Positions 10,205 to 29,033 of a DNA stretch of 38,509 nt are shown here, piece by piece; position 1 is the first letter of the stretch; each line of letters begins with the position of its first letter. Both the position numbers and the translations under genes were made by a program. The notes below the pieces were generated by a model, which was not told where the DNA came from, searched no databases, and was given only the letters and a program-made list of their open reading frames with translations. Origin of the DNA: an uncultured Phascolarctobacterium sp. (GTDB taxonomy: Bacteria; Bacillota; Negativicutes; Acidaminococcales; Acidaminococcaceae). The DNA is taken from contig CANREP010000018.1 of assembly GCA_947629685.1 (NCBI GenBank), forward strand, positions 1-38,509, in the 5' to 3' direction.

Positions 10205-10437
10205 GGTAAAGGCTATGAAGGGGAGTCTTCCTGGAGGCAGAGCTCAAGAGAAGCGGCGGTTGGTGCAAGCCGTGCAAGGCGTCAGGATCTGTAGCCCCGG
10301 AGCAGTCCGGCTGAAACAGCAGTAGGCCGGAACGAGTCGCGCCCGTTACGCGCTTTGAGTGCTTCGCTTTGTGCGGAGAAAATAGGTGGTACCGCGATAA
10401 TTCGTCCTGTTCATTTTGAACAGGACTTTTTTATTTT
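10205..10437 (+). promoter_or_regulatory. T-box leader of valS
   Basis: This tRNA-sensing leader lets valS be expressed when uncharged tRNA-Val accumulates. The T-box sequence GGTGGTACCGCG is at 10385-10396. The terminator GTCCTGTTC (10404-10412) / GAACAGGAC (10418-10426) is followed by TTTTTTATTTT. The Stem I region shows AGAGAAG and the apical GGTTGGTGCAAGCC typical of the class. GTC at 10281-10283, on the 3' side of the expected specifier loop, is a Val codon and agrees with the downstream gene. The exact specifier assignment is by eye. Confidence 0.9.
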
Positions 10438-10459
10438 CAGTTTTGAGGAGGATTTGTCA

Positions 10460-13114
10460 ATGAGTGAAGAACATAACATTCCCAAGGTTTACGACCCTGC
10501 TTCCGTAGAGAAGAAATGGTATAAATTCTGGGAAGAGCACAGATATTTCCATGCGGAGGTTGAAGAAGGCAAGGATGCGTTCAGCATCGTTATCCCGCCT
10601 CCGAATATTACCGGCCAGCTGCACATGGGCCATGCTCTGGACAATACCCTGCAGGATATTTTAATCCGCTGGCACCGTATGATGGGTCACAATACCCTGT
10701 GGATGCCCGGCTATGACCATGCAGGTCTGGCTACGCAGATTAAGGTAGAAGAAGTAATCAAAAAAGAAGAAGGCAAGACCCGTTATGATCTGGGCCGCGA
10801 AGAGTTCCTGAAACGCGTATGGCAGTGGAAAGAGCAGTACGGCGACCGCATCATCAACCAGCTCAAATGTCTGGGCGTTTCCTGCGACTGGGAACGTAAA
10901 CGCTTTACTATGGACGAGGGCTGCTCTAAGGCTGTACGTGAAGTATTCTGCTCTTTGTACGAAAAAGGCCTCATCTATAAAGGCACCCGCATCACCAACT
11001 GGTGCGTAAACTGCAACACTGCGCTGAGTGATATCGAAGTTGAACATAAAGACGATGCCGGCAGCCTGTGGTATGTACGTTATCCGGTAGTGGAAGAAGA
11101 AGGTACTTATCTGACCATTGCTACCACCCGTCCGGAAACCATGCTGGGCGATACTGCTGTTGCCGTTAACCCGGAAGATCCCCGTTACGGACATCTGGTA
11201 GGCAAAACTCTGCGCCTGCCTTTAACCGACCGCGTTATTCCCATTATTGCCGACAGCTATGTTGACCTTGAATTCGGTACCGGCGCCGTTAAGATTACTC
11301 CGGCACACGACCCCAACGACTATGAAATGGGTATGCGTCATAAACTGCCCAGCATCGTCGTTATCGGCATGAACGGTCTGATGACTGAAGAAGCTGGCAA
11401 ATACGCCGGTCAGGAACGTTATGAATGCCGTAAGAATATTGTTAATGATTTAAAAGAACAGGGCTACCTGGTAAAAATCGAAGAACATTCCCATGCAGTT
11501 GGTCACTGCCAGCGCTGCGGCAGCGTCGTAGAACCGCTTGTTTCTACCCAATGGTTTGTTAAGATGGAGCCTTTGGTAAAAGCTGCGGTAGACTGCGTAG
11601 AAGACGGCCGTACCCAGTTTGTACCGGAACGCTTTACCAAGACTTATACCGGCTGGATGGAAAACATCCGCGACTGGTGTATTTCCCGTCAGATCTGGTG
11701 GGGTCACCGTATTCCTGTCTGGTACTGCGATGACTGCGGCGAAATGTCTGCTTCCCGTACTGATCTGACTGTCTGCCCGAAATGCGGCAGCGCTCATATC
11801 CATCAGGACGAGGACGCACTGGACACCTGGTTCAGCAGCGCTCTGTGGCCGTTCTCTACTATGGGCTGGCCGGATAAGACGCCGCTTTTGAAACAGTTCT
11901 ATCCTACCAGCGTACTGGTAACCGGTTACGATATTATCTTCTTCTGGGTTGCCCGTATGCTGATTATGGGTATGGAATTCATGAAAGAAATTCCTTTCGA
12001 GAAAGTATTCATCCACGGTCTGTTACGCGACAGCCAGGGCCGCAAGATGTCCAAGTCTTTAGGCAACGGTATCGACCCGCTGGAAGTTATCGACCAGTAC
12101 GGTGCTGATACTCTGCGCTTCATGCTCATTACCGGCAACACTCCGGGCAACGATATGCGTTTCTACTGGGAACGTGTGGAAGCTACCCGTAACTTTGCCA
12201 ACAAGATCTGGAATGCTTCCCGCTTTGCCCTCATGAATATGGAAGGCTACGACCCCAAAGCAGAGCTGGCTCCGTATACTCTGGCAGATAAATGGATACT
12301 GTCCCGTCTGCAGCATACTGCACAGTCCGTTACCGATTTGCTGGGCAAATTCGAGCTGGGCGAAGCAGGCCGTCTGATTTACGACTTCATCTGGGGCGAG
12401 GTGTGCGACTGGTATATCGAGCTGGCTAAACCCAGACTGTATAATAAAGAAAATGCCGCAGAACGCGCTACTGCACAGCACGTTCTGGCGCAGGTACTTA
12501 CCTCTGCCATGCAGCTGCTGCATCCTTACATGCCCTTCATCACCGAAGAAATCTATCAATGCCTGCCCCACGAAGCAGAAAGCATCATGATTTCCAAGTG
12601 GCCTGAAGCTGACGCTGCCTTAATGGATGACGAAGCAGAACGCCTGATGGGCGCTATCATGGAAAGCATTAAGGCTGTCCGCAACATGCGTGCGGAAGTA
12701 AATGTACCGCCCGGAAAGAAAGTTCCGGCTATCATGCTGGCTGCTGCCGACCTGAAAGACGGCATTATCGCCAACGAAAACTACGTACACCTGATGGGTG
12801 CTATCAGCGAACTGACCGTGCTGGATGAAAATGCGGCCAAACCGGAAAACGCCATGGCTGCCGTAGTAAGCGGTATTGAAGTATATCTGCCGCTGGCAGG
12901 CCTTATCGACGTGGAAAAAGAAAACCAGCGTCTGACCAAAGAGCTGGCAGCTATCGACAAAGAGCTGGCACGCGTTAACGGCAAGCTGGGCAACGCAGGT
13001 TTCCTGGCTAAAGCTCCTGCTGACGTTATCGAAAAAGAAAAAGCAAAAGCAGAAGAACTGAACGCGAAAAAGGCTTCCATCAACGAACGCCTGGAATATT
13101 TAAAGACCTTATAA
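10460..13114 (+). CDS. valS: Valyl-tRNA synthetase
   Basis: This cytoplasmic class I synthetase charges tRNA-Val. The 884 residues start at 10460 behind GAGGAGG. The in-frame upstream start at 10355 would run through the T-box terminator and is rejected. Visible motifs are PPPNITGQLHMGH (signature HMGH, residues 55-58) and KMSKS (529-533). The CP1 editing region carries TTRPETMLGDTAVAVNP, and a Zn-ribbon-like CDDCGE...CPKCG pair is present. A C-terminal coiled coil rich in Lys, Glu and Ala (about 820-884) is typical of ValRS. Length is normal for bacterial ValRS. Control is by the T-box. Confidence 0.97.
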   Translation: MSEEHNIPKVYDPASVEKKWYKFWEEHRYFHAEVEEGKDAFSIVIPPPNITGQLHMGHALDNTLQDILIRWHRMMGHNTLWMPGYDHAGLATQIKVEEVIKKEEGKTRYDLGREEFLKRVWQWKEQYGDRIINQLKCLGVSCDWERKRFTMDEGCSKAVREVFCSLYEKGLIYKGTRITNWCVNCNTALSDIEVEHKDDAGSLWYVRYPVVEEEGTYLTIATTRPETMLGDTAVAVNPEDPRYGHLVGKTLRLPLTDRVIPIIADSYVDLEFGTGAVKITPAHDPNDYEMGMRHKLPSIVVIGMNGLMTEEAGKYAGQERYECRKNIVNDLKEQGYLVKIEEHSHAVGHCQRCGSVVEPLVSTQWFVKMEPLVKAAVDCVEDGRTQFVPERFTKTYTGWMENIRDWCISRQIWWGHRIPVWYCDDCGEMSASRTDLTVCPKCGSAHIHQDEDALDTWFSSALWPFSTMGWPDKTPLLKQFYPTSVLVTGYDIIFFWVARMLIMGMEFMKEIPFEKVFIHGLLRDSQGRKMSKSLGNGIDPLEVIDQYGADTLRFMLITGNTPGNDMRFYWERVEATRNFANKIWNASRFALMNMEGYDPKAELAPYTLADKWILSRLQHTAQSVTDLLGKFELGEAGRLIYDFIWGEVCDWYIELAKPRLYNKENAAERATAQHVLAQVLTSAMQLLHPYMPFITEEIYQCLPHEAESIMISKWPEADAALMDDEAERLMGAIMESIKAVRNMRAEVNVPPGKKVPAIMLAAADLKDGIIANENYVHLMGAISELTVLDENAAKPENAMAAVVSGIEVYLPLAGLIDVEKENQRLTKELAAIDKELARVNGKLGNAGFLAKAPADVIEKEKAKAEELNAKKASINERLEYLKTL

Positions 13115-15964: not shown

Positions 15965-16039
15965 CCCGAAAAACAAGAAAAATTATCATTAAGAATAAAA
16001 ATTAAATAAGTATAAAATTTTGTTTAATAAAATACTGTA

Positions 16040-16182
16040 ATCGGGTGCAGCCATGCTTAATAGAGAAATCGGTACAAGCCGATGCTGTCCCGCAGCTGTA
16101 GTGCCGAGCAAGTCCAACAATGCCACTGGGAAACCGGGAAGGCTGGAGGCGCGATGAAGCAGAGCCAGAAGAACTGCCCGAT
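16040..16182 (+). promoter_or_regulatory. Cobalamin (B12) riboswitch
   Basis: The class hallmarks appear in order. A closing stem is formed by ATCGG (16040-16044) and CCGAT (16178-16182). AATAGAGAA and the ATCGG-N6-CCGAT hairpin follow, then TGCCACTGG (16121-16129), CCGGGAAGG, and the B12 box AGCCAGAAGAACTGCC (16163-16178), close to the consensus AGYCAGGAGACCTGCC. Such elements bind adenosyl- or other cobalamins and usually switch off B12 uptake or biosynthesis genes. The next gene is an autotransporter, an unusual target. An open frame from 16120 runs through the riboswitch and is not the real start. Confidence 0.93.
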
Positions 16183-16213
16183 TATTTTTATACAATGCCT
16201 GCGAAAGACAGTC

Positions 16214-16262
16214 AGCGTATTCAGGACGCTTTTTTGTCATGGGCAGAAAAGCGTCTTTTGCT
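16214..16262 (+). terminator. Riboswitch expression platform (terminator with competing antiterminator)
   Basis: GACGCTTTT (16225-16233) pairs with AAAAGCGTC (16247-16255), followed by TTTTGCTTT, forming an intrinsic terminator between the riboswitch and the gene. AGCGT (16214-16218) can instead pair with ACGCT (16226-16230), which destroys the terminator. The two folds exclude each other, as expected for transcriptional control by the aptamer. Which fold the ligand favours is inferred from the class (ligand gives termination). Confidence 0.75.
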
Positions 16263-16332
16263 TTATTTCGCCGGAAATAAAGAGGCCGCGGCTGCTTATT
16301 TTATATACTACAACTTAAACGAGGTGAAGCTT

Positions 16333-19300
16333 ATGAACAAAAAATTACAGATGAAGATTGTCCTGAGCATCCTTTTAGCCGGGGCCTTTACAGGCAGCGC
16401 CTGGGTGCAGCCGGGACAGGCGTATGCGGAAAAACGTATTACCGGCGGTATTTATGAAGAGGATGTCTTTGCTCAGCAGCAGAGTGTGAACAGTAAGGAG
16501 AAAGTAACGCTGACGGATGCCAGGCTCATCATCGAGGGCGGCGAAATAAAGAGCAAGTTTGATTCCCGCTACCGGGAGTATGTCAACGGCAATGCTTACG
16601 CCGCGCACCTGCAGAATGTGGGTACAGGCGGTATAGAGATGCGCAACGATACGCTGTGGATGAGCGGCGGCAAAGTGGAAGGCGAGGCAGTAGCAGCCTG
16701 GGGCAGCGGCAAGGGCGACCTGCTGCTGGCAGGCAACGAGGCGCGGCTGACAGGAGGCAGTGCGGCTGCGGTTTATGCGGCGCAGGCTTTCAACCCTGAC
16801 GAGCGGGAGGTAGTGCTGCGTGATAACCGGCTGAAGCTGCAGGGCACGCCGGAGGCCAGGGCGGAAATCGGCACAGGCGCGGCGGCGCTGGTCAATTATG
16901 CCAACGGCGGCACGCTGACCTTGACCGGTAATCAGACCTCAGTAAGCAATGCGCTGGTTGGTAGTCACCTGTACGGCGGCAATATTGCGGCCTTTGACAG
17001 AAAAGCTGCTCAGGTGACGGCCAGCGGCAATGGGGTTGAGCTTACGGATACGCAGACGGCAGGCTCGGGCAATATCTACGGCGTCAATGTGCAGCAGGAC
17101 AAGAAAAGGTTTGAACATATCGCGGCCGACGGCAACAGCGCTTCCCTCAGCGGCAGGATGCAGGGCAGCGCCAATATCATCTACGGCGCTAAGGTAGCGG
17201 AAGCGGTTACAGGCAGCGCCAATAACAATAAAGTTGCTATCAGCGTCAGCAGTAAATATGTTGTGGACGCGGCTATCGGGGCGCGCATCGACGGCGGCAG
17301 CAAGGACGGGCACAGCGAGCTGGAAGCCAGCGGCAACCAGGTTTACGTCAGCGGCGGCGCCGACAAGGAACATGAGCTGCTCGTCAGGGGCAGTACTGGC
17401 GGCGGCAGTCAGGGCGGCATTACCGGCGGCAGGGTCTATACTGCTGCAGATACGGATGCGGCCAGAGCTAACAGAAACGTCGTCACTATCGGCTCCTTTG
17501 TGGGCAACAAGAATGGCACTATCAACTATGGCGGCCGTGTGGACGGTTACGGTACGGCGAAAGTCGCAGAGGCTAACGGCAACAAAGTCAGCGTAGGTGC
17601 GGACAACAGGCTGGCCGTATTGTACGGCGGTTCTGCCAGCGGCGCTTCGGCGGCAGCGGACGGCAATGTGCTGACGATTGCTTCTTCCGGCGTGGGCGGT
17701 ATTTACGGCGGCTCGGCCAGCGGTACGGATAAGGTTTCTGCCAGCGGCAACCAGATAACCATGAGCAATGACAGGGAAAACCTCAGAAGCAGCAGTATCA
17801 CCGGCGGCAAGGCCAAGGCGACGGGTACGGGCGAGGCTGTTGCCGATAACAACATCCTCCGGCTGGACGGTACGGAATTTACGCTTTTAACAGCAGCAGG
17901 TATCGCCGACAGCGCGGCGGGCAGCGCCCAAAGTAACGGTAACCGGCTCCTGGTCAGCGGCAAGGCCGATTTCGACGTAGAGGTTTACGGCGGTAAGGCC
18001 AGCAGCAGTTCGGGTACGGCGACGGCAGATAAAAACGGCATCGTGATAGAGAGCGGCGACTTTAATCTGCGTAATTTTTCTTTCATTCCCGGCGGGCTGA
18101 GTGCGGGCGCAGCCAGAAATGGCACGGGGCAGGCTTTAACCAGGGATAATTTCATCGTTATCCAGGGCGGCGACATCACTGCAGGGGGCGAATGGAAAGG
18201 TACCGCCTATCCCAGCTTCATCAACGGGGGCAGGGCTGTTGCCGGCAGCGGCGATGCTGAGGCCAGCAATAACAGCGTTGCCGTCAGCGGCGGTACAATC
18301 AAGCTTACCAACAGGTATGACGCCGACCATAAGGCTCAATTTACCAGCGACTTATCCGGCGGGCACGTAGAAAGCGGCGGTAAGGCTGTAGCTGTAAATA
18401 ACAAGGTAGCTATCAGCGGCGGTACGCTTATCGGCGATATATACGGGGCTTACGCTAAGGGCAGCAGCGCGGAAATCACACATAATAGCGTAAGCGTGCA
18501 GGGCAAGGCAGATCTGAGCCTGGCGTCATTGTACGGTTATAAGGCGGAGGTGCAGGATAAATCGCTGCAGGCTGCCGATAACACGCTGCACGTGGACGGC
18601 TGGCAGGGCGCGGTGCAGCGGGTGGCTAATTTTGATAAGATAACGCTGGATAATACGGTTATCGGCAAAGACGGCAAAGTGCTTTGCATCGCTGCGGCGC
18701 AGGCTGACGATCTGAAAAATGCGCAGGTAAATTTCAACAGCCTGGCAGGCGGGCAGGATTTGAGCAAGGTTAAGACTATCAGACTGCTGGACAGCGGGCA
18801 GCAGCTTGGTATAGCTAAGACGGAATTTAAAGAATATGTGCCTGCCGGCGTAGGCCTGATGGTGCGCGGCGAAGCGGATACATCGGCTGGCGGCTTGAGC
18901 TTTAAGGTGAAAGAAGTTAAAACCAGTAAGCAGGCTGATAATGTTGCTGCCGGCAGAGCGGTGAGCGCGGCATTTCTGAATCAGGGAGGCGACCTGATTG
19001 CCGATAGCCTGGACAGGCTGTCTTTAGCAGAGGAGGAAGGCGTACAGACCTTTGCCGCCGTACAGGGCAACCGCAGCAAATACGATGTTAACAGCGATTT
19101 GAAAATCAACGGCTGGAACAGCATCGTCGGTGTCGGCAGCAAGGGAGAAGCTGCTGACAGCGTTTACAGCTGGGGCATCTTTTACGAAAACGGCAGCGGC
19201 AACTACCGCACTCATAATGAATTCAACAACGGATTCTTCCGCAGCGACGGCAGCCTTGTCTACAACGGCGGCGGTATCGCAGCCCGTTGGCAGCGGGATA

Positions 19301-19845
19301 ATGGGGTCTATGCCGAAGGCAGCCTGCGTGCCGGCACGCTGAAAAATGAAGCGGGAAGCTCTTTGCAGGACAGCGCAGGCCAGGCCTACGGCTATAAAAC
19401 TTCTGGCAGTTACTACGGAGCGCATGTGGGCGTAGGCAAGGTTATCAGCTTAAATGAAGCTACCGACCTTGACGTTTACGGTAAATTCTTCCACACCTAT
19501 ACGGACGGCGACAGCTTAACTGTAGCAGGTGACAAATTTGAATTTGACAGCATCACCAGCGACAGGCTGAGGATAGGCGCAAGGGTTACGACAAATAAGG
19601 AAAATAAATTCAGCACCTACTACGGACTGGCCTGTGAATACGAGTTCAATGGCGATGCCGATTTGCGGGTACAGAATGTAGCTGCTCCCAGACAGAGCCT
19701 GCAGGGAAGCAGTTATATGGCGGAAATAGGTATGAACTACCAGCCGGGCAGCGATTCTCCGTGGAGCTTTGATTTGAATATGCGCGGCTATGCCGGCGAG
19801 CGCGACGGTTTCAGCGGCAGCGTGCAGGCAACCTACAGCTTCTAA
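16333..19845 (+). CDS. Large autotransporter under B12-riboswitch control
   Basis: This is a 1170-residue secreted and outer-membrane protein. The start at 16333 follows GAGGTGA and gives a signal peptide (MNKKLQMKIVL, hydrophobic core, cleavage near AYA/EK). Residues about 35-850 form a passenger built from many irregular units of the type N-x-V/L-x-(V/I)-S/x-GG and I/IYGG, the pattern of a beta-helix. From about residue 900 a barrel begins (FAAVQGNRSKYDVNSDLK) that is clearly related to the barrels of the 0.4-4.5 kb array and ends SVQATYSF. The passenger has no recognised catalytic or corrinoid-binding motif. Regulation by cobalamin suggests a role when B12 is scarce, such as scavenging B12 or a B12-carrying partner, or switching surface contacts. 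That is inference. Confidence 0.85.
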   Translation: MNKKLQMKIVLSILLAGAFTGSAWVQPGQAYAEKRITGGIYEEDVFAQQQSVNSKEKVTLTDARLIIEGGEIKSKFDSRYREYVNGNAYAAHLQNVGTGGIEMRNDTLWMSGGKVEGEAVAAWGSGKGDLLLAGNEARLTGGSAAAVYAAQAFNPDEREVVLRDNRLKLQGTPEARAEIGTGAAALVNYANGGTLTLTGNQTSVSNALVGSHLYGGNIAAFDRKAAQVTASGNGVELTDTQTAGSGNIYGVNVQQDKKRFEHIAADGNSASLSGRMQGSANIIYGAKVAEAVTGSANNNKVAISVSSKYVVDAAIGARIDGGSKDGHSELEASGNQVYVSGGADKEHELLVRGSTGGGSQGGITGGRVYTAADTDAARANRNVVTIGSFVGNKNGTINYGGRVDGYGTAKVAEANGNKVSVGADNRLAVLYGGSASGASAAADGNVLTIASSGVGGIYGGSASGTDKVSASGNQITMSNDRENLRSSSITGGKAKATGTGEAVADNNILRLDGTEFTLLTAAGIADSAAGSAQSNGNRLLVSGKADFDVEVYGGKASSSSGTATADKNGIVIESGDFNLRNFSFIPGGLSAGAARNGTGQALTRDNFIVIQGGDITAGGEWKGTAYPSFINGGRAVAGSGDAEASNNSVAVSGGTIKLTNRYDADHKAQFTSDLSGGHVESGGKAVAVNNKVAISGGTLIGDIYGAYAKGSSAEITHNSVSVQGKADLSLASLYGYKAEVQDKSLQAADNTLHVDGWQGAVQRVANFDKITLDNTVIGKDGKVLCIAAAQADDLKNAQVNFNSLAGGQDLSKVKTIRLLDSGQQLGIAKTEFKEYVPAGVGLMVRGEADTSAGGLSFKVKEVKTSKQADNVAAGRAVSAAFLNQGGDLIADSLDRLSLAEEEGVQTFAAVQGNRSKYDVNSDLKINGWNSIVGVGSKGEAADSVYSWGIFYENGSGNYRTHNEFNNGFFRSDGSLVYNGGGIAARWQRDNGVYAEGSLRAGTLKNEAGSSLQDSAGQAYGYKTSGSYYGAHVGVGKVISLNEATDLDVYGKFFHTYTDGDSLTVAGDKFEFDSITSDRLRIGARVTTNKENKFSTYYGLACEYEFNGDADLRVQNVAAPRQSLQGSSYMAEIGMNYQPGSDSPWSFDLNMRGYAGERDGFSGSVQATYSF

Positions 19846-20545: not shown

Positions 20546-20573
20546 TTGACAGCCATAAAAGGTAGAATAAAAT
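20546..20573 (+). promoter_or_regulatory. Promoter of the hydrogenase-like sensory operon
   Basis: TTGACA (20546-20551), 16 bases and TAAAAT (20568-20573), ending about 75 bases before the first start codon. Confidence 0.7.
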
Positions 20574-20648: not shown

Positions 20649-21014
20649 ATGCAATTAAAAGATGTAAAGGAACTGCTGCGGGCCAAGGTGCTGACCGGCG
20701 AAGGATTGCTGGACCGGGAGGTGGAGACCTGCTGCGGCAGCGATCTGATGAGCGACGTGCTGGCTTTTACCAAAAGGCGCACACTGCTGTGCACCGGCCT
20801 GACCAATCTGCAGGTGATACGCACGGCTGACATGACGGATTTGTGCGCGCTGGTCATCGTGCGCGGCAAGATTCCCGGCGGGGAAATTTTAGAAGCAGCG
20901 GCGGAAAACGGGCTGCCGGTACTGGCGACCCAGCATACGCTGTTTGAAGCCTGCGGCATACTGTATCAGGCAGGTATCAAAGGATGTTCAAAGAAGGAAG
21001 ACGACCATGAGTGA
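20649..21014 (+). CDS. DRTGG-domain protein (first copy)
   Basis: This is a 121-residue protein with one DRTGG-like domain: an N-terminal segment MQLKDVKELLRAKVLTGE, a central region LLDREVETCCGSDLMSDVLAFTK and a C-terminal part with LPVLATQHTLFEACGILYQ. Such domains occur alone, in phosphotransacetylase-like proteins and next to [FeFe]-hydrogenase genes. Their ligand is not established. I start at 20649, behind GGTGGGAGA; a GTG at 20637 is possible but would overlap that site. The gene overlaps the next by eight bases. A second, longer-conserved DRTGG gene lies two genes downstream. This copy has a CC pair (residues 31-32) that the other lacks. Confidence 0.75.
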   Translation: MQLKDVKELLRAKVLTGEGLLDREVETCCGSDLMSDVLAFTKRRTLLCTGLTNLQVIRTADMTDLCALVIVRGKIPGGEILEAAAENGLPVLATQHTLFEACGILYQAGIKGCSKKEDDHE

Positions 21015-21450
21015 GAATAAATCTGTAAAAATGGAATTTGAGGTAGCAGGCGGCGATTTTGAACGCGCCGGCGAAGCTTCGGCCAAAATCAAGCGGATGC
21101 TGCAGCGTCTCGGTATTGCCGCCGATATTGTGCGGCGTATCGCCATCGGCACTTATGAGGCGGAAATGAACGTCATTATCCACGCCGGCGGCGGCAAGGT
21201 AGCGGCAGAGGTGTTTACCGACGCGACGGAGATTACCGTTACCGACGCCGGACCCGGCATCCCCGATATTGACAAGGCTTTGCAGGAGGGCTGGTCCACA
21301 GCGCCGGAATATGCGCGGCAGATGGGTTTTGGCGCCGGCATGGGGCTGCCCAATATGGTAAAATGTTCGGATAAGTTCGATATCCAGTCCGAGGTGGGCG
21401 TGGGTACCACTATCCGTATGAGGTTTGAACATATCAGTGAAGATTTATAG
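21007..21450 (+). CDS. RsbW-like ATP-binding protein (HATPase_c)
   Basis: This 147-residue protein consists of a single GHKL/HATPase_c domain. An N box-like IGTYEAEMNVIIHAGGG, a G1 box DAGPGIPD and a G2 box GFGAGMGLPNM are visible. The layout (no dimerisation or histidine domain) is that of anti-sigma-factor kinases such as RsbW and SpoIIAB. The start at 21007 overlaps the end of the DRTGG gene, so translation is coupled. In hydrogenase contexts such proteins are thought to pass a signal to a partner by phosphorylation. No sigma or anti-anti-sigma partner is visible here, so the target is unknown. Confidence 0.85.
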   Translation: MSENKSVKMEFEVAGGDFERAGEASAKIKRMLQRLGIAADIVRRIAIGTYEAEMNVIIHAGGGKVAAEVFTDATEITVTDAGPGIPDIDKALQEGWSTAPEYARQMGFGAGMGLPNMVKCSDKFDIQSEVGVGTTIRMRFEHISEDL

Positions 21451-21476
21451 AATAAACTACGGAAAGAGGTGATACG

Positions 21477-22844
21477 ATGGCTCCGACAGAATATTTTCAT
21501 TCGGTAAAATTACAGCGGGACAAATGTCAGGGCTGCGTATCCTGCGTCAAGGTCTGTCCTACGGAGGCTATCCGCGTGCGGGCAGGAAAGGCGGAAATAC
21601 TGAGCGACCGCTGCGTGGACTGCGGCAGCTGCGCCAGGAAATGTCCTTACCATGCTTACAGCGTGGCTATGGATACGCTGGCAGAGCTGGAAGGCTATGC
21701 GTACAATATCGTACTGCCCGCGCCGTCGCTGTACGCCCAGTTCCCGGCATCCGTGCCGCTGGAGGACATCTGGCAGGGACTGCACACGCTGGGCTTTGAC
21801 GAGATTTTTGACGTGTCGCTGGCTTCCGAGTACGTGGCGCGCGAGATAGAAAGCTATGTGAAAGGCGATACGGGCGGACGCAGACCGCTGATTTCCAGTA
21901 CCTGTCCTGCCGTGCTGCGTCTGATCCAGGTCAAGTTCCCCGAGCTGATCAAACAGCTGGTGCCGGTGCTGGCTCCGGCAGAAGCGGCGGCCATCTATGT
22001 GCGGCAGGAGGCGGCAGCTAAGCATAACCTGGCGCCTGAGCAGATCGGCGTCTGGTTTATCTCGCCCTGTCCGTCCAAGGAAAGCAATATCCGTCAGTCG
22101 GTAGATGTGAAGCAGTCGCAGCTGACGGGCAGCTTCAGCCTGGCGGATATTTACGGTAGGTTGCTGAAATGCCTGGGCGGCGATGGCAGGCTCAATGTGC
22201 GCACTGGTTCTTCCTACGGGATGGGCTGGGGCGCGTGCGGCGGCGAAGCGGCGTCTGCGGGACTGGAAAACGTATTGGTCGTGGACGGTATCGACAATGT
22301 CTACGAAGTTTTGGAGCAGGTGTCCATGAATAAGATGCCCCAGCTGGATTATATTGAATGCAGCTCCTGCCAGGGCGGCTGCATCGGCGGTATGCTGGCG
22401 GCGGAAAACAGATTTGTGGCGCTGAGCAACCTGCAGCAGCGTATCCGCAGGATACGGGAAAATGAGCCTGCCGACAGGCTCGAAGCTATGGCTGCCCATA
22501 TGGTGCTGGCAGATTTCCCGAAATCGGCGGAGTACCGCAAAAAGGTCGTACCCCGTCCCATGATGCAGCTGGACGACGACATCATGGAAGCTATGAAGAA
22601 ATTTGAGCGCATGGAAGAAGTGCTGCAGGATCTGCCCGGCCTGGACTGCGGCGCGTGCGGCGCTCCCAGCTGTCAGTGTCTGGCCGAAGACATCGTGCAG
22701 GGCAAGGCCCATATTACGGACTGTATTTTCAAGCTGCGCAGCAGCGTACATAAACTGGCCCAGGGGATGCTGGAGCTGGCGCGTCAGGTGCCTATTTCCC
22801 ATGAGCCCGAACCGGTGCAGAATTTTGAGGAGGACGAAGAATGA
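21477..22844 (+). CDS. [FeFe]-hydrogenase-like protein, putative sensory type
   Basis: This 455-residue iron-sulfur protein has an N-terminal two-cluster ferredoxin domain (CQGCVSCVKVCP and CVDCGSCARKCP). An H-cluster domain follows, then a Fes-type domain (C391-x2-C394-x4-C399, CGACGAPSC), and an acidic tail ends the protein. The H-cluster cysteines are retained: L1 STCPAV (C143), L2 SPCPSK (C198), L3 CQGGC (C298, C302). The catalytic-type TSCCPxW is reduced to STCP, so if the C-P cysteine is the cluster ligand, the proton-relay Cys is a Thr. The usual L3 GGGQP is GGML. These traits and the neighbours (DRTGG, ATPase, PHP) fit the putative sensory (group D) [FeFe]-hydrogenases, not an H2-producing enzyme. 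Group assignment is from memory of the family and needs a tree. Confidence 0.85.
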   Translation: MAPTEYFHSVKLQRDKCQGCVSCVKVCPTEAIRVRAGKAEILSDRCVDCGSCARKCPYHAYSVAMDTLAELEGYAYNIVLPAPSLYAQFPASVPLEDIWQGLHTLGFDEIFDVSLASEYVAREIESYVKGDTGGRRPLISSTCPAVLRLIQVKFPELIKQLVPVLAPAEAAAIYVRQEAAAKHNLAPEQIGVWFISPCPSKESNIRQSVDVKQSQLTGSFSLADIYGRLLKCLGGDGRLNVRTGSSYGMGWGACGGEAASAGLENVLVVDGIDNVYEVLEQVSMNKMPQLDYIECSSCQGGCIGGMLAAENRFVALSNLQQRIRRIRENEPADRLEAMAAHMVLADFPKSAEYRKKVVPRPMMQLDDDIMEAMKKFERMEEVLQDLPGLDCGACGAPSCQCLAEDIVQGKAHITDCIFKLRSSVHKLAQGMLELARQVPISHEPEPVQNFEEDEE

Positions 22845-23182
22845 AAGTCAAAGATATCATGGCGGCGCTGCCTGTAAAGCTGCTGACGCCGGAGGCTGCC
22901 TTGGACGGCGAAATCGCGGGCGGCTATGCTTCCGATTTGCTGAGCAATGTCATGGGCCAGGCGCAGCCGGGCATGGTGTGGGTCACCATGCAGGGACATC
23001 AGAACGTAGCGGCAGTGGCGTCGCTGATCGGCGTAGCGGCAGTCATCGTGGCTGGAGATTCGCCGGTAGCGGAAGATACGCTGAGCAAAGCCGCTCTTAA
23101 CGAAGTAGTTATCTTTTCTACGGAGCTGTCCGCTTTTGAAATTATCGGACGGCTGTACGAGCTGGGAGTGGGCAAAGAGTAA
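22841..23182 (+). CDS. DRTGG-domain protein (second copy)
   Basis: This 113-residue protein closely matches the stand-alone DRTGG pattern: GEIAGGYASDLLSNVMGQA, a VTMQGHQNVAAVASL strand-helix, and a C-terminal STELSAFEIIGRLYEL. It starts four bases inside the hydrogenase-like gene (ATGA overlap), so the two are made together. The domain is probably a small-ligand or protein-binding module in the signalling chain; no ligand can be read from the sequence. Confidence 0.85.
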   Translation: MKVKDIMAALPVKLLTPEAALDGEIAGGYASDLLSNVMGQAQPGMVWVTMQGHQNVAAVASLIGVAAVIVAGDSPVAEDTLSKAALNEVVIFSTELSAFEIIGRLYELGVGKE

Positions 23183-23952
23183 TGCGCAGCATTCTGGCAG
23201 ATTTTCATATTCACACGCTGCTTTCCCCCTGTGCGGAAATCGAGATGACGCCTCACCATATCGTGATGCGGGCGGCGGAGTTCGGTATCGGCGCGGTGGC
23301 CATAACCGACCATAACGCCTCGGCAAACGCACTGGCAGCGGTAAAAGCCGGCGAGCGCTACGGGGTAAAGGTGTTTCCGGGTATGGAAGTGGAATGTCTG
23401 GAGGAAGCCCATATCGTAGTGCTGTTTGATACGCTCAAGCAGCTTAACGCCTGGCAGCAGCTGGTGGACGGCAAAATGAACGGGCTGCCCAATAATGCGG
23501 AAAAATTCGGCGGTCAGTTCGTGGTAGACGACGACGATAATTTCATCCGCGAGGAACAGCGGATGCTTTTGGCGCCTGTCGGGCTGACGGCGGCAGAGGT
23601 GGTGCGCGAGGCAGAACGTCTGGGAGGCATGAGTATTGCCGCCCATATCGACCGCCCTTCCTACAGTATCGTAGGGCAGCTGGGTTTCATCGAGCCTGGA
23701 TTCGGCTTTGCGGCGGCAGAGATTTCAGCGGCAGGCTGGAAAAACGGGATGCAGAGCAGGCTGCAGCGTCTGGCAGGCTACCTGCCCTTTGTTACCAGTT
23801 CCGACGCTCACAATATCATGGATTTTGTGCAGGGGCCGAAAAATATCGTTACCGTGGAAGAGCTGACCATAGCGGAGCTGAAGCTGGCGCTGAACCATAG
23901 CAGCGGCCGCAGCTGGCGTGCCGGTTGTTTTGCTGATTTTCAGGAGAAATAA
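23182..23952 (+). CDS. PHP-domain metal-dependent phosphoesterase
   Basis: This 256-residue protein carries the PHP metal-binding motifs in order: DFHIHTLLSPC (residues 7-17), AITDHN, PGMEVEC, AHIDRPS and SSDAH. The fold is a TIM-like barrel with a trinuclear metal site that removes phosphate from nucleotides, phospho-sugars or proteins. Its start shares one base with the preceding stop (TAATG), making it the fifth gene of the operon. Beside an RsbW-like kinase, it could be the opposing phosphatase or process a nucleotide signal; this is inference. Confidence 0.88.
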   Translation: MRSILADFHIHTLLSPCAEIEMTPHHIVMRAAEFGIGAVAITDHNASANALAAVKAGERYGVKVFPGMEVECLEEAHIVVLFDTLKQLNAWQQLVDGKMNGLPNNAEKFGGQFVVDDDDNFIREEQRMLLAPVGLTAAEVVREAERLGGMSIAAHIDRPSYSIVGQLGFIEPGFGFAAAEISAAGWKNGMQSRLQRLAGYLPFVTSSDAHNIMDFVQGPKNIVTVEELTIAELKLALNHSSGRSWRAGCFADFQEK

Positions 23953-24057: not shown

Positions 24058-24555
24058 ATGAGCCTAATCAATCAAAAATGCAGCTGCTGCGGCGGCGAAA
24101 ATCCTGAAAAAGTTCAGGTGGATGCAATCTTAGCTAAATATGAGGGCAAAAAAGGTTCCCTTATTCCGATTCTGCAGGAAGTGCAGAGCCTGTATAATTA
24201 TCTGCCCAAGGATGTGCTGGAATATGTGGCTTCTAAAACCGGCGTGCCCATTTCCGAAATCTACGGCGTAGTAACTTTCTATTCTCTGTTTCATCTCAAT
24301 CCCCGCGGACGCAACATCATCCGCGTCTGCCAGGGTACTGCCTGCCATGTACGCGGCGGCAAGCTGATTTTGCAGGCGCTGGAAAAAGAGCTGGGCATCA
24401 AGGCCGGCCATACTACGGAAGATCTGCGCTACACGCTGGAAACTGTTGCCTGCATCGGCGCGTGCGGATTGGCCCCCGTCATGCAGATCAACGACGATAC
24501 TCATGGCCGTCTGACGCCTGATAAACTGCCGGCCATTTTAAAAAGGTACCAGTAA
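24058..24555 (+). CDS. hndA: NAD(P)-linked [FeFe]-hydrogenase, NuoE-like subunit
   Basis: This 165-residue thioredoxin-like [2Fe-2S] subunit is related to NuoE, HydC and HndA. The cluster ligands are CQGTAC and CIGAC, with the family segment VTFYSLFHLNPRG before them. AAAGGAGA precedes the ATG. It has an N-terminal CSCCGG motif (about residues 8-13) ahead of the usual domain, perhaps an extra metal site. It would pass electrons between the flavin subunit and the hydrogenase subunit encoded downstream. Confidence 0.9.
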   Translation: MSLINQKCSCCGGENPEKVQVDAILAKYEGKKGSLIPILQEVQSLYNYLPKDVLEYVASKTGVPISEIYGVVTFYSLFHLNPRGRNIIRVCQGTACHVRGGKLILQALEKELGIKAGHTTEDLRYTLETVACIGACGLAPVMQINDDTHGRLTPDKLPAILKRYQ

Positions 24556-24558
24556 ATC

Positions 24559-25113
24559 ATGCGGGAGTTGTCACTGCATATATTGGATCTGGCGCAGAAT
24601 TCCATCGAGGCCGGAGCTAAAAACCTTGTTATCGCCATTGACGAAGATGAAGACGGCTTTTTCGTCTTCCGCATCGAGGACGACGGCAGGGGGATGAGCC
24701 AGGAGCTTCTGCAGCAGGTGCGCGACCCGTTCACGACTACCCGGCTGAGCCGTAAGGTGGGGATGGGCATCCCCTTTATCGACATGGTTACCCAGCAGTG
24801 CGGCGGGCATCTGGAGCTGACGTCGGAAAAAGGCAGCGGTACGAAGCTGGCCGCTTATTTTGCCGCCGGCAATATCGATATGCCGCCTTTAGGCGACATT
24901 GCCGCCAGTATCAGGGTACTGCTGGCCGGAGCGCCGTGGCTGGAACTTGATTTCAGTTATACCTGCGGCGGACGCAGGCTTGATTTTTCTACCCGCCAGG
25001 TGCGGGAGATACTTGGCGACGCCGCCGATTTTGCCAACCCGGAGATTTCTCTCTGGCTGGAGGAATACTTAAAACAGGAAATTGCCAAAGTAAAAGGTAT
25101 GGAGGTTCAATAA
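24559..25113 (+). CDS. Histidine-kinase-like ATP-binding protein within the hydrogenase operon
   Basis: This 184-residue GHKL ATPase domain shows N box DLAQNSIEAGA, G1 box DDGRGM, F box DPFTTTR and G2 box GMGIPF. There is no HisKA helix pair with a phosphorylatable His and no sensor domain. The C-terminal 80 residues (from about LAGAPWLELDF) are not recognised. It begins three bases after hndA and is followed immediately by hndB, so it is part of the operon. Homologous ATPases occur in similar hydrogenase loci. A role in regulating the hydrogenase or relaying redox state is inferred. Confidence 0.82.
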   Translation: MRELSLHILDLAQNSIEAGAKNLVIAIDEDEDGFFVFRIEDDGRGMSQELLQQVRDPFTTTRLSRKVGMGIPFIDMVTQQCGGHLELTSEKGSGTKLAAYFAAGNIDMPPLGDIAASIRVLLAGAPWLELDFSYTCGGRRLDFSTRQVREILGDAADFANPEISLWLEEYLKQEIAKVKGMEVQ

Positions 25114-25482
25114 ATGAAAAGCTTGGAAGATTTGCATAAACTGCGTGAAAAACTGAAAGCGGACATCAAACTGCGCAAAGACGAAGGCACCAAGATCATC
25201 GTTGGTATGGGTACCTGCGGTATCGCCGCCGGCGCGCGCGAAGTGATGAGCGCTATCTTGGACGAACTGGCAGTACGCAAGCTGCTCAACGTGCAGGTGC
25301 AGCAGACCGGCTGCATCGGTATGTGTGAGAAAGAAGTGCTGGTCGACGTCATCCGTCCCGGCGAGCCCCGCATCACCTACGGCAAGGTAAAACCCGAAGA
25401 TGTGAAGAAAATCATTGCCGAGCATGTGGTCAACGGCCGCATCGTGGAAGAACTCGTTGTCGGTAAGCTGGAACAGGAATAA
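25114..25482 (+). CDS. hndB: NAD(P)-linked [FeFe]-hydrogenase, HndB-like subunit
   Basis: This 122-residue thioredoxin-like ferredoxin subunit matches the small HndB family: VGMGTCGIAAGA and QQTGCIGMCEKEVLVDVI. Only three cysteines are present (C35, C67, C71), where a standard [2Fe-2S] domain of this fold has four, so the cluster may use another ligand or be absent. Its start directly abuts the stop of the ATPase gene. The length is typical for the family. Confidence 0.85.
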   Translation: MKSLEDLHKLREKLKADIKLRKDEGTKIIVGMGTCGIAAGAREVMSAILDELAVRKLLNVQVQQTGCIGMCEKEVLVDVIRPGEPRITYGKVKPEDVKKIIAEHVVNGRIVEELVVGKLEQE

Positions 25483-25502
25483 TTTTTTTGGAGGAGAGAA
25501 TT

Positions 25503-27293
25503 ATGCAGCATATCAGAGCTCATGTTTTAGTTTGCGGCGGCACGGGCTGTAAATCCGCAGGTTCTAAGGAGATCCAGCTCGGCTTCGCCAAATATCTGGA
25601 AGAATACGGCCTGCAGAACGAGGTCATGCTGGTAGAAACCGGCTGCCACGGCTTCTGCGAGCACGGTCCGCTGGTCATCGTCTATCCTGAAGGCACTTTC
25701 TACTGCCATGTAAAACCGGAAGACGTGAAAGAAATCGTTGAAAGCCACCTGTATAAAGGGCGCATCGTGGAACGCCTGCTGTACCGTGAGCCTTTGAGCC
25801 ATGAGCAGGTGCCAAATTATTCGGAAATCGGCTTCTATAAAAAGCAGCAGCGCCTGGTACTTGCCAACTGCGGCGCTATCAACCCGGAAATGATCGAGGA
25901 ATATATCGCCGTGGGCGGGTATGAAGCGCTGGCTAAAGCCGTTACTACCATGACCCCGGAAGAGGTAGTCGACGAAGTGAAAAAATCCGGCCTGCGCGGA
26001 CGCGGCGGCGGCGGCTTCCCGACCGGCATGAAATGGCAGTTTGCCAAGAATTCTGTCAGCGATAAGAAATACGTTATCTGCAACGCCGACGAAGGCGACC
26101 CGGGTGCGTTCATGGACCGCAGCGTACTGGAAGGCGACCCGCACCGCGTGCTGGAAGGCATGGCCATCTGCGGTTACGCTATCGGCGCTGACGAGGGTTA
26201 TATCTATGTGCGTGCCGAATACCCGCTGGCTATCAAACGCCTGCGCACGGCTATCGAGCAGGCTGAAAAGATGGGCCTTTTAGGTGAGAACATCTTCGGC
26301 AGCGGCTTTAATTTCACCCTGCATATCAAAGAAGGCGCAGGCGCATTCGTCTGCGGCGAAGAAACCGCCCTCATGGCTTCTATCGAAGGCAAACGCGGTA
26401 TGCCCCGTCCCCGTCCGCCGTTCCCGGCTGTTTCCGGCCTGTGGGGCAAACCGACCAATATCAATAATGTAGAGACCTTTGCCAATGTGGCCCAGATCAT
26501 CGTCAACGGCGCTGACTGGTACTGTCAGTACGGCACGGAACGCTCTAAAGGCACCAAGGTTTTCGCCCTTACCGGCAAGATTAACAACACCGGCCTGGCA
26601 GAAGTGCCCATGGGCATTACCATGCGTGAGATTATCTACGATATCGGCGGCGGCATCACCAACGGCAAGAAATTCAAGGCCGTACAGATCGGCGGCCCGT
26701 CCGGCGGCTGTCTGCCGGAATCCATGCTGGATCTGCCGGTTGATTATGATTCGCTGATTGCTGCCGGCGCTATGATGGGCAGCGGCGGCCTGGTTGTCAT
26801 GGATGAGGACACCTGCATGGTGGACGTAGCTAAATTCTTCCTGAACTTTACCCAGTCCGAATCCTGTGGTAAATGTACGCCCTGCCGCGAAGGCACCAAG
26901 CGTATGCTGGAGATTTTGACCCGTATTACCGAAGGCCAGGGCAGGGAAGGCGACATCGAGCTTTTGGAAAACCTGGCGAAGAATATTAAGGAAACCGCTC
27001 TGTGCGGGTTGGGACAGACTGCTCCTAACCCCGTACTGAGTACTTTGAAATATTTCCGCGACGAATACGAAGCGCATATCAAAGAAAAACGCTGTCCGGC
27101 CGGCGTATGCGAAAAGCTGGCCAGCTACACCATTACCGACGCCTGCCGCGGCTGCGGACTGTGCGCCCGCAACTGCCCGGTACAGGCTATCAGCGGTAAG
27201 ATTAAGGAAAAACACGTTATCAATCAGGATATCTGTATCAAATGTGGTGCCTGCATGGCTGCATGTCCGTTCAAGGCTATCACCAAGGGTTAA
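25503..27293 (+). CDS. hndC: NAD(P)-linked [FeFe]-hydrogenase, flavin subunit (NuoF-like)
   Basis: This 596-residue soluble subunit exchanges electrons with NAD(P)(H). In order it has a thioredoxin-like [2Fe-2S] domain (CGGTGC, TGCHGFC), the FMN/NADH domain with GRGGGGFPTGMKW and NADEGDPGAFMDRS, and a SLBB region. A [4Fe-4S] site (SCGKCTPCREGTKRM) and a C-terminal two-cluster ferredoxin (CRGCGLCARNCP, CIKCGACMAACP) follow. The start at 25503 follows GGAGGAGA. The composition is that of HydB/HndC subunits of trimeric or tetrameric, often electron-bifurcating, hydrogenases. Confidence 0.93.
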   Translation: MQHIRAHVLVCGGTGCKSAGSKEIQLGFAKYLEEYGLQNEVMLVETGCHGFCEHGPLVIVYPEGTFYCHVKPEDVKEIVESHLYKGRIVERLLYREPLSHEQVPNYSEIGFYKKQQRLVLANCGAINPEMIEEYIAVGGYEALAKAVTTMTPEEVVDEVKKSGLRGRGGGGFPTGMKWQFAKNSVSDKKYVICNADEGDPGAFMDRSVLEGDPHRVLEGMAICGYAIGADEGYIYVRAEYPLAIKRLRTAIEQAEKMGLLGENIFGSGFNFTLHIKEGAGAFVCGEETALMASIEGKRGMPRPRPPFPAVSGLWGKPTNINNVETFANVAQIIVNGADWYCQYGTERSKGTKVFALTGKINNTGLAEVPMGITMREIIYDIGGGITNGKKFKAVQIGGPSGGCLPESMLDLPVDYDSLIAAGAMMGSGGLVVMDEDTCMVDVAKFFLNFTQSESCGKCTPCREGTKRMLEILTRITEGQGREGDIELLENLAKNIKETALCGLGQTAPNPVLSTLKYFRDEYEAHIKEKRCPAGVCEKLASYTITDACRGCGLCARNCPVQAISGKIKEKHVINQDICIKCGACMAACPFKAITKG

Positions 27294-27308: not shown

Positions 27309-29033
27309 ATGACTATGGTAAATTTGACTATCAATGGTAAACAAATCCAGGCCGAACAGGGAACTACTATCCTGGAAGCTGCCCGTGCGGCCGGAATCTA
27401 TATCCCGACCCTGTGCTATCATCCTGAGCTGCGCCCCGAAGGGGCCTGCCGTCTGTGTATGGTAGAAGCGTCCGGCGCGCGCACGCTGGTTGCTTCCTGC
27501 GTCTATCCCGTCAGCGAGGGCCTGGTGGTAAAGACCAATACGGATAAGGTGCGCGAAGCGCGCAAGACGGTGGTGGAACTGCTTTTGGCCAACCATCCCA
27601 AAGACTGTCTGTGCTGCCAGAAGAGCGGCGACTGCGAACTGCAGAAGATTGCCGCCGACCTGGGACTGCGTAAGATCCGTTTCGAGGGCGGCGAGACTAA
27701 GGCTCACACTATCGACTGCAGCAATCCGTCGCTGGTACGCGACCAGGAAAAATGCATCCTCTGCGGCCGCTGCATCCGTATCTGCCGCGACGTACAGGGC
27801 ATGAGCGTCTACAGCTTTGCCGGACGCGGCTTCAACACCATCGTTTCCACCGCTTTCGAGCATGACCTGAAAGACGCTGTCTGCACCTACTGCGGCCAGT
27901 GCGCGAGCGTCTGCCCGACCGGCGCTATCGTAGAAAAAGATGATACCGAACAGGTATGGAAAGCTATTAACGACCCCGACAAGGTGGTCATCGTACAGAC
28001 AGCTCCTTCCGTGCGCGTAGCGCTGGGCGAGGAGCTGGGCATCCCGGCAGGCAGTATCGTTACCGGCAAGATGGTAGCGGCGCTGCGCAGCCTGGGCTTC
28101 GACAAGGTATTCGACACTAATTTCTCTGCTGACCTGACCATTATGGAAGAAGGGCACGAGTTCATCGACCGCCTGCAAAACGGCGGCGTGCTGCCTATGA
28201 TTACTTCCTGCAGTCCCGGCTGGGTAAACATGATCGAGCTGAAATATCCCGACCTGCTGCCCCATCTGTCGACGGCTAAATCGCCGCAGCAGATGTTTGG
28301 GGCCGTAGCCAAGACCTATTACGCAGAAAAAGCCGGCATCGACCCGGCTAAGATCGTCAGCGTCTCCGTTATGCCCTGCACGGCTAAGAAAGCTGAAGCG
28401 CAGCGCGAGGAAATGTGCGACAGCGGCTACCGCGACGTAGACGTAGTCATCACTACCCGCGAACTGGGCCGTATGATCCGCGAGGCCGGCATCGACTTTG
28501 CCGCCCTGCCGGAAGAGCATTTTGATTCTCCGCTGGGCACCGGAACCGGCGCCGCTGTAATCTTCGGCAACACGGGCGGCGTTATGGAAGCGGCCCTGCG
28601 TACCGTGGCTGACGTAGTCAGCGGCGAAGACCTGCCCAAGATCGAGTACGAAGAAGTACGCGGTATGGAAGAGACCCGCGAAGCTACCCTGAATATTGCC
28701 GGCAAGGAAATCAAGATTGCCGTAGTCAATACCCTTGCTTCTGCTCATAAGATGCTGGACCGTATCAAGGCCGGTACCGCCGACTATCAGTTCATCGAAG
28801 TCATGGCCTGCCCGGGCGGCTGCATCGGCGGCGGCGGACAGCCCGTTCCCGTAAACCGCGAAATCAGGCAGAAACGCCGCGAGGCCCTGTTTGACTGTGA
28901 CAGGATGAGCGAATTACGAAAATCACACGAAAATCCTGAAATTAAGGCGCTTTATGATAATTGGCTTGGAAAACCTCTCGGAGAAAAAGCACATCATCTA
29001 CTGCATACGCACTATTCGGCAAAAGTACGGTAA
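27309..29033 (+). CDS. hndD: [FeFe]-hydrogenase catalytic subunit
   Basis: This is the 574-residue enzyme that interconverts H2 with protons and electrons at an H-cluster. It has an N-terminal [2Fe-2S] plant-ferredoxin domain (CYHPELRPEGACRLC...C), a His-Cys3 cluster region (HPKDCLCCQKSGDC) and two [4Fe-4S] motifs (CILCGRCIRIC, CTYCGQCASVCP). The H-cluster motifs are L1 TSCSPGW (C301), L2 MPCTAKKAE (C357) and L3 MACPGGCIGGGGQP (C501, C505). A C-terminal small-subunit-like domain follows. L1 has Ser at one of the tandem Cys positions of TSCCPxW, a variant I believe is common in NAD-linked enzymes. AGGAGG at 27293-27298 supports the start. A strong terminator ends the operon. Confidence 0.95.
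   Translation: MTMVNLTINGKQIQAEQGTTILEAARAAGIYIPTLCYHPELRPEGACRLCMVEASGARTLVASCVYPVSEGLVVKTNTDKVREARKTVVELLLANHPKDCLCCQKSGDCELQKIAADLGLRKIRFEGGETKAHTIDCSNPSLVRDQEKCILCGRCIRICRDVQGMSVYSFAGRGFNTIVSTAFEHDLKDAVCTYCGQCASVCPTGAIVEKDDTEQVWKAINDPDKVVIVQTAPSVRVALGEELGIPAGSIVTGKMVAALRSLGFDKVFDTNFSADLTIMEEGHEFIDRLQNGGVLPMITSCSPGWVNMIELKYPDLLPHLSTAKSPQQMFGAVAKTYYAEKAGIDPAKIVSVSVMPCTAKKAEAQREEMCDSGYRDVDVVITTRELGRMIREAGIDFAALPEEHFDSPLGTGTGAAVIFGNTGGVMEAALRTVADVVSGEDLPKIEYEEVRGMEETREATLNIAGKEIKIAVVNTLASAHKMLDRIKAGTADYQFIEVMACPGGCIGGGGQPVPVNREIRQKRREALFDCDRMSELRKSHENPEIKALYDNWLGKPLGEKAHHLLHTHYSAKVR

Follow-up and report, generated by a model that had tools for sequence, protein, structure and literature searches.

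A candidate phosphosignalling module with a putative sensory [FeFe] hydrogenase beside ferredoxin/NAD(P)H enzymes of Bacillota

What could a hydrogenase-like iron-sulfur protein, an anti-sigma-type kinase domain, two DRTGG-fold proteins and a PHP phosphoesterase be doing together in one gene cluster? The question is raised by a 38,509-nt stretch of DNA from an uncultured Phascolarctobacterium sp. (contig CANREP010000018.1 of GCA_947629685.1; hereafter the window), which comes from a genome of 1.78 Mb (G000, contig C18). At 20649-23952, the genes D1, K1, HydS, D2 and PHP follow one another in this order on a single strand, with gaps of -8, +26, -4 and -1 bp. The balance of the evidence tips slightly toward a phosphosignalling module that tunes ferredoxin/NAD(P)H enzymes, in which HydS would be a removable H2/redox input and the DRTGG proteins would be adaptors. 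The domains were called with Pfam and NCBIfam models and their cut-offs, and the features concerned are as follows.

20546..20573, +: sigma-70-like promoter upstream of D1 (TTGACA-16-TAAAAT, 11/12; consensus match only)
20649..21014, +: D1, DRTGG-fold protein, 121 aa (ATG start; alternative GTG 12 bp upstream)
21007..21450, +: K1, SpoIIAB/RsbW-like GHKL kinase domain, 147 aa (HATPase_c_2)
21477..22844, +: HydS, group D (M2e) putative sensory [FeFe] hydrogenase, 455 aa (Pfam, motifs, tree)
22841..23182, +: D2, second DRTGG-fold protein, 113 aa (DRTGG 22.2 bits and residues in common with D1)
23182..23952, +: PHP phosphoesterase, 256 aa (Pfam PHP, full metal-ligand motif set)
24058..24555, +: HydC (NuoE-like), bifurcating hydrogenase subunit, probable target (Pfam 2Fe-2S_thioredx, NCBIfam nuoE)
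24559..25113, +: K2, second GHKL ATPase, 184 aa, part of the proposed signalling module (HATPase_c 51.9 bits; PHP fusions)
25114..25482, +: Fdx, thioredoxin-like [2Fe-2S] ferredoxin, probable module member (NCBIfam ferredoxin similarity; K2 fusion)
25488..27293, +: HydB (NuoF-like), probable target (Pfam, NCBIfam)
27309..29033, +: HydA, group A6 NADH-dependent [FeFe] hydrogenase, probable target (NF040763 918.9 bits, cut-off 765; group A clade in the tree)

The original prediction, which was made from the window alone, had described a five-gene hydrogenase-like sensory operon acting as one machine. A check of open reading frames (ORFs) and Pfam domains found all five ORFs in the claimed order and with the claimed domains, D2 lying slightly under the DRTGG cut-off. 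The observation stands and its reading is broadly borne out. The limit of five genes did not hold in full, and the unit runs on into K2 and probably Fdx. The 105-bp gap between PHP and HydC (24058) contains no terminator-like site on the + strand, so all ten genes from D1 to HydA may form one operon.

The proteins of the cluster

The class of HydS was settled from its motifs and its place in a tree. It matches Fe_hyd_lg_C at 97.2 bits (cut-off 22.1), FeS at 47.9 bits and Fer4 in Pfam, and comprises two N-terminal [4Fe-4S] motifs (eight Cys), the H-domain with the four H-cluster Cys and a C-terminal Cx2Cx4Cx16C motif (C391-x2-C394-x4-C399-x16-C416). All 16 Fe-S cysteines are 100% conserved in an alignment with 102-104 relatives. 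The position of the proton-relay Cys (Cys299) is occupied by Thr142 in the window protein and by Cys in 0 of 102 readable relatives, while that of Met353 is Ser196 and is Ser or Thr in 96/102 relatives; a PAS domain was not matched by Pfam. The loss of the proton-relay Cys, the change of Met353 to Ser and the lack of PAS are marks of group D (M2e) (PMC8163306). Because the motifs, the residue changes and the PAS absence agree with these published features, HydS is, on its sequence, a group D (M2e) PAS-less putative sensory [FeFe] hydrogenase with a predicted response to H2. In a tree of 68 H-domains, in which TamHydS of Thermoanaerobacter mathranii was not included by name, it stands in its own clade (Shimodaira-Hasegawa-like approximate likelihood ratio test, 100) apart from A, B and PAS-type C. 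The tree placement proposed as a check of the original prediction thus does not put HydS among the catalytic group A enzymes. A group A catalytic enzyme was rejected on this position and on a TIGR02512 score of 87 bits against a cut-off of 406, and a PAS-type group C protein was rejected for want of PAS and for its place outside clade C. The HydF maturase gene is present in the genome.

The two DRTGG proteins flank HydS and K1. D1 scores 32.4 bits with Pfam DRTGG (cut-off 25.2), and its AlphaFold2 (AF2) model (predicted local distance difference test, 90.7) matches best the Pfam DRTGG structure 2ioj, with a template modelling score of 0.79; AF1212, the CBS-pyrophosphatase DRTGG domain and the HPr kinase N-terminal domain are also near. 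S35 and T49 of D1 are 100% conserved across 101 loci. D2 scores 22.2 bits, just below the same cut-off, and proteins of its type are 22-32% identical to D1 and agree with it at the positions where D1 is most conserved, including the almost invariant D32 and the invariant S35 and T49. Judged by these residues, D2 is plainly a paralogue of D1.

K1 matches HATPase_c_2 at 42.8 bits (cut-off 27.4); among solved structures, the anti-sigma F factor 1til is nearest to it (E 2e-8). Across 109 loci, conservation is at or near 100% for the two N-box residues, Glu and Asn, and for most of the GAGMGLPN box. K1 would act, like SpoIIAB, as an ATP-dependent Ser/Thr kinase. It scores 54.5 bits against the SpoIIAB equivalog cut-off of 135. 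No STAS-domain protein is found in the complete genome, and the usual RsbV/SpoIIAA partner is therefore missing; the classical substrate being absent, K1 needs a different one.

The PHP protein scores 37.8 bits in Pfam (cut-off 26.4), with the His/Asp/Glu residues of its motifs 100% conserved in 98 loci. A structure search with its AF2 model returned EndoQ, TM0559, RNase AM and an Mn/AMP amidohydrolase, and the neighbours in fold include nucleases and nucleotide phosphatases. Its partner K2 lies inside the hydrogenase genes in the window; that K2 is simply a component of the hydrogenase was nevertheless ruled out by PHP~K2 fusions and by loci without hydrogenase genes, where K2 adjoins PHP, and for the same two reasons K2 is assigned to PHP. 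In three loci (L042, L102, L092), Fdx has K2 or K1 on one side and rnfC on the other, and on this placement and its fusion to K2 in L043 it probably belongs to the module.

Fusions, locus variants and neighbouring enzymes

The linkage of these genes was examined in 116 loci, which were picked from HydS/K1 matches together with deliberate exceptions, so that the counts do not show how frequent each arrangement is in the population. The gene neighbourhood is far from random: a locus usually reads D1 K1 HydS D2 PHP HydC K2 Fdx HydB HydA, and the order of the five genes is repeated in most of the loci across Bacillota. Several of the genes also occur fused. D1~K1 fusions are present in 13 loci of three families, HydS~D2 in two loci of one family (L039, L104) and PHP~K2 in five loci of one family (L030, L087, L115-L117), while K1~HydS and K2~Fdx (L043) are each found in one locus of a single assembly. 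The claim of one machine gains strength from the D1-K1, K1-HydS, HydS-D2 and PHP-K2 fusions. Several loci seem to have Rex in place of D1, but D1 is present there, fused to K1.

What the module adjoins is variable. HydBC/HydA are the neighbours in 81 of the 116 loci, HydBC with a formate dehydrogenase gene in 6, Rnf in 6 and NfnAB in 4, and in 19 there is no such enzyme or the contig ends; Rnf, Rex and NfnAB-like genes were confirmed by NCBIfam. All four, HydABC, Rnf, NfnAB and formate dehydrogenase with HydBC, are enzymes that exchange electrons of ferredoxin and NAD(P)H. Locus L129 combines D2, K2 and Fdx with HydC, HydB, a HydA-like protein of 360 aa (matched in its N-terminal part only) and a formate-dehydrogenase-like ORF. 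A Rex gene is directly upstream of D1 in 18/116 loci. Rex is an NADH-responsive repressor.

The module itself can also be reduced. It occurs without HydS in six loci (L089, L090, L091, L093, L096, L100), and D1-K1 alone is left in three others (L092, L097, L098). The hydrogenase-like sensory operon of the original prediction therefore remains apt for the linkage to HydS and is too narrow for those bacteria in which the module lies beside other enzymes without it. In three Phascolarctobacterium loci (L007, L008, L019), D1-K1-HydS-D2 is kept, PHP and hydCBA are gone from the locus and the genomes are without K2, as if PHP and K2 went with the target enzyme; L013 resembles these, but its sequence ends soon after D2. 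Overall, the parts, their intact catalytic motifs, the linkage, the fusions and the exchange of neighbouring enzymes are supported by the sequences compared.

Profile searches for HydS, K1 and PHP in 398 genomes from 266 genera of the phylum gave HydS matches in 172 genomes (106 genera), K1 matches in 172 and PHP matches in 157. K1 is present in 159 of the 160 genomes with a strong HydS match; in the exception (G155, the genome of L083), the stretch is short and HydS lies near the contig end, with no gene upstream of it in the stretch. Likewise, HydS is present in 153 of the 157 genomes with PHP. The Fisher p-values for co-occurrence are 1e-82 and below, a statistic that ignores shared ancestry. 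Most genomes of the sample are without the module, and within Negativicutes it was seen only in the Acidaminococcaceae/Phascolarctobacterium lineage and in one further metagenome-assembled genome (L020). Fifteen other Negativicutes in the sample have no HydS, PHP or K1; K2 is absent from all nine of these in which it was sought, eight of which encode [FeFe] hydrogenases.

Other hydrogenase-like proteins were met in the loci. At L053:3980-5890 (-), an [FeFe]-hydrogenase domain is fused to a methyl-accepting chemotaxis protein (MCP) signalling domain and adjoins a group D HydS. HydS-like proteins of about 740-780 aa lie near the module at L039:10418-12721, L088:9560-11785 and L104:10743-13079, those of L088 and L104 being placed beside group C in the tree. 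The HydS match of L065 (G255) reads through two in-frame TGA codons, for which a start/end effect, a sequence error and recoding are candidates. The genome of L129 has no HydF match over the cut-off, and the same is true of G034 (loci L097, L133, L135; 98% complete), which has seven Fe_hyd matches and a D1-K1 pair next to genes for Rex and NfnAB-like proteins. In the window itself, a cobalamin riboswitch (16026-16195, 98 bits) overlaps the called start of ORF 16120-19845, a 1241-aa autotransporter-like surface protein whose translation probably begins at the internal MNKKLQ near 16333; control of a surface protein by B12 is unusual. A T-box leader (10206-10412, 103.7 bits) is located upstream of ORF 10355-13114.

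A possible signalling route and the alternatives

The module would act by protein phosphorylation on enzymes through which ferredoxin, NAD(P)H and H2 exchange electrons; in the window the target would be HydABC, encoded downstream. HydS would serve as a slow H2/redox probe in which H2 or the ferredoxin pool sets the state of the H-cluster and of the Fe-S clusters. A change in HydS would pass to D2 and then to D1 with the attached kinase K1, so that HydS-D2 contacts D1-K1; the two adaptors would probably form a heterodimer and might bind adenine nucleotides. K1 would then phosphorylate a module or target protein, with S35/T49 of the DRTGG proteins or HydB/HydC as candidates, and PHP and K2 would form a counter-arm at the enzyme side. 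H2 as the signal, the D1-D2 contact, the substrates of K1 and PHP, the sign of the effect and control at the post-translational level are what we infer here.

Several points weigh against this route. S35 and T49 could bind a ligand instead of being phosphorylated, K2, which has no histidine phosphotransfer domain, might work as a switch driven by ATP, and a protein phosphatase role for PHP is a guess, because nucleases and nucleotide phosphatases also have PHP folds. None of the arms is indispensable, since some loci are without HydS, PHP or K2. A TamHydS without its C-terminal cluster is barely altered in catalysis, which challenges earlier signalling ideas (PMC13104023), and no biochemistry was found for K1, D1, D2, PHP or K2.

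The module might instead report H2 or redox state to Rex, to an AraC-type regulator or, by anti-sigma partner switching, to a sigma factor, and so alter hyd expression. The likeness of K1 to the anti-sigma F factor SpoIIAB, the 18 loci with Rex directly upstream of D1 and the AraC-type regulator gene reported beside TamHydS (PMC8163306) would fit such a route. However, classical anti-sigma partner switching is improbable in a complete genome without a STAS protein, K1 falls far short of the SpoIIAB cut-off, none of the module proteins has a DNA-binding domain, 98 of the 116 loci are without Rex directly upstream within the stretch examined, and the linkage of PHP and K2 is to the enzyme genes themselves. 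Transcriptional control is therefore considered unlikely.

Two further explanations deal with the enzymes rather than with a signal. K1/K2 and PHP could load, repair or proof-read the Fe-S, flavin or nucleotide cofactors of HydABC, Rnf, Nfn and Fdh, with HydS as a redox helper and not a sensor, as the same genes adjoin four different Fe-S/flavin enzymes, and chaperones are found among GHKL ATPases and nucleotide phosphatases among PHP proteins. Yet the module is absent from most genomes of the phylum sample, eight of the nine tested Negativicutes without HydS and K2 encode [FeFe] hydrogenases all the same, the Glu/Asn N-box and the lid of K1 are still of the SpoIIAB type, and the active-site changes of HydS fit the sensor class; a role in assembly or maintenance thus appears quite improbable. 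That HydS is mainly a low-rate metabolic hydrogenase, modulated on its own by the small genes, would agree with TamHydS, which is catalytically active though slow (PMC8163306), and with the HydS~D2 and K1~HydS fusions. This we regard as very improbable, given that the module persists in the six loci without HydS and that the proton-relay Cys is lost in 102/102 sequences.

For phosphosignalling, a broader form can be put forward only tentatively, at somewhat less than even chances: an exchangeable kit of D1, K1, D2, PHP, K2 and Fdx would control HydABC, Rnf, NfnAB and the bifurcating formate dehydrogenase in anaerobic Bacillota, H2 being read through the removable group D hydrogenase and paired DRTGG adaptors replacing PAS. 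If this is true for all four enzymes alike, many gut and industrial anaerobes would have a common switch for the fate of ferredoxin electrons, which would affect the output of H2, acetate, ethanol or propionate. How PAS-less group D sensory hydrogenases relay their signal is an open question in the field (PMC8163306), and the fusions give specific contacts that can be tested, namely D1-K1, HydS-D2 and PHP-K2.

Relation to known systems

Group D hydrogenases have been described as putatively sensory and as lying upstream of bifurcating hydrogenases beside a kinase (PMC8163306, PMC3561251, PMC3608648). The sensory class and the placement by a kinase are already published, and this share of the finding is therefore known. 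The statement that the pieces co-occur while their mechanism is undescribed was thus right for the partners as one system, which is undescribed in the open literature found, and went too far for the sensory reading and the adjoining kinase. The open literature searched held nothing relevant on DRTGG with a hydrogenase or PHP, though an earlier mention of DRTGG or PHP genes in Calusinska 2010, the cited source for group D, is possible. As far as this search shows, the partners of HydS, the fusion map and the exchange of neighbouring enzymes are undescribed.

The closest relatives are TamHydS and Cthe_0335 of Clostridium thermocellum, which are like HydS in domain layout, in the lost proton-relay Cys, in the change of Met353 to Ser and in the lack of PAS (PMC8163306, PMC3561251). 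Their genes likewise lie upstream of a bifurcating hydrogenase and have a kinase-like gene close by. The literature found on them does not describe the partners DRTGG and PHP, the fusions or the Rnf/Nfn/Fdh swap. D1 is alike in fold to the regulatory DRTGG domain of CBS-pyrophosphatase and to the N-terminal domain of HPr kinase/phosphatase, whereas D1 and D2 are either free-standing proteins or parts of fusions with K1 and HydS, and have conserved residues of their own. Similarly, K1 has the fold and the kinase motifs (GHKL N-box, G boxes) of the SpoIIAB/RsbW anti-sigma kinases, but the genome has no STAS partner, and the proteins with which K1 is linked are DRTGG and HydS. With the PAS-linked group C (M2f) HydS of Thermotoga maritima and Ruminococcus albus, which is proposed to signal H2 to a kinase, the present HydS has in common that it is a slow H-cluster protein and has the same C-terminal Fe-S motif; in contrast to the PAS domain there, DRTGG adaptors and a SpoIIAB-like kinase would take its place here, and HydS falls in a separate clade.

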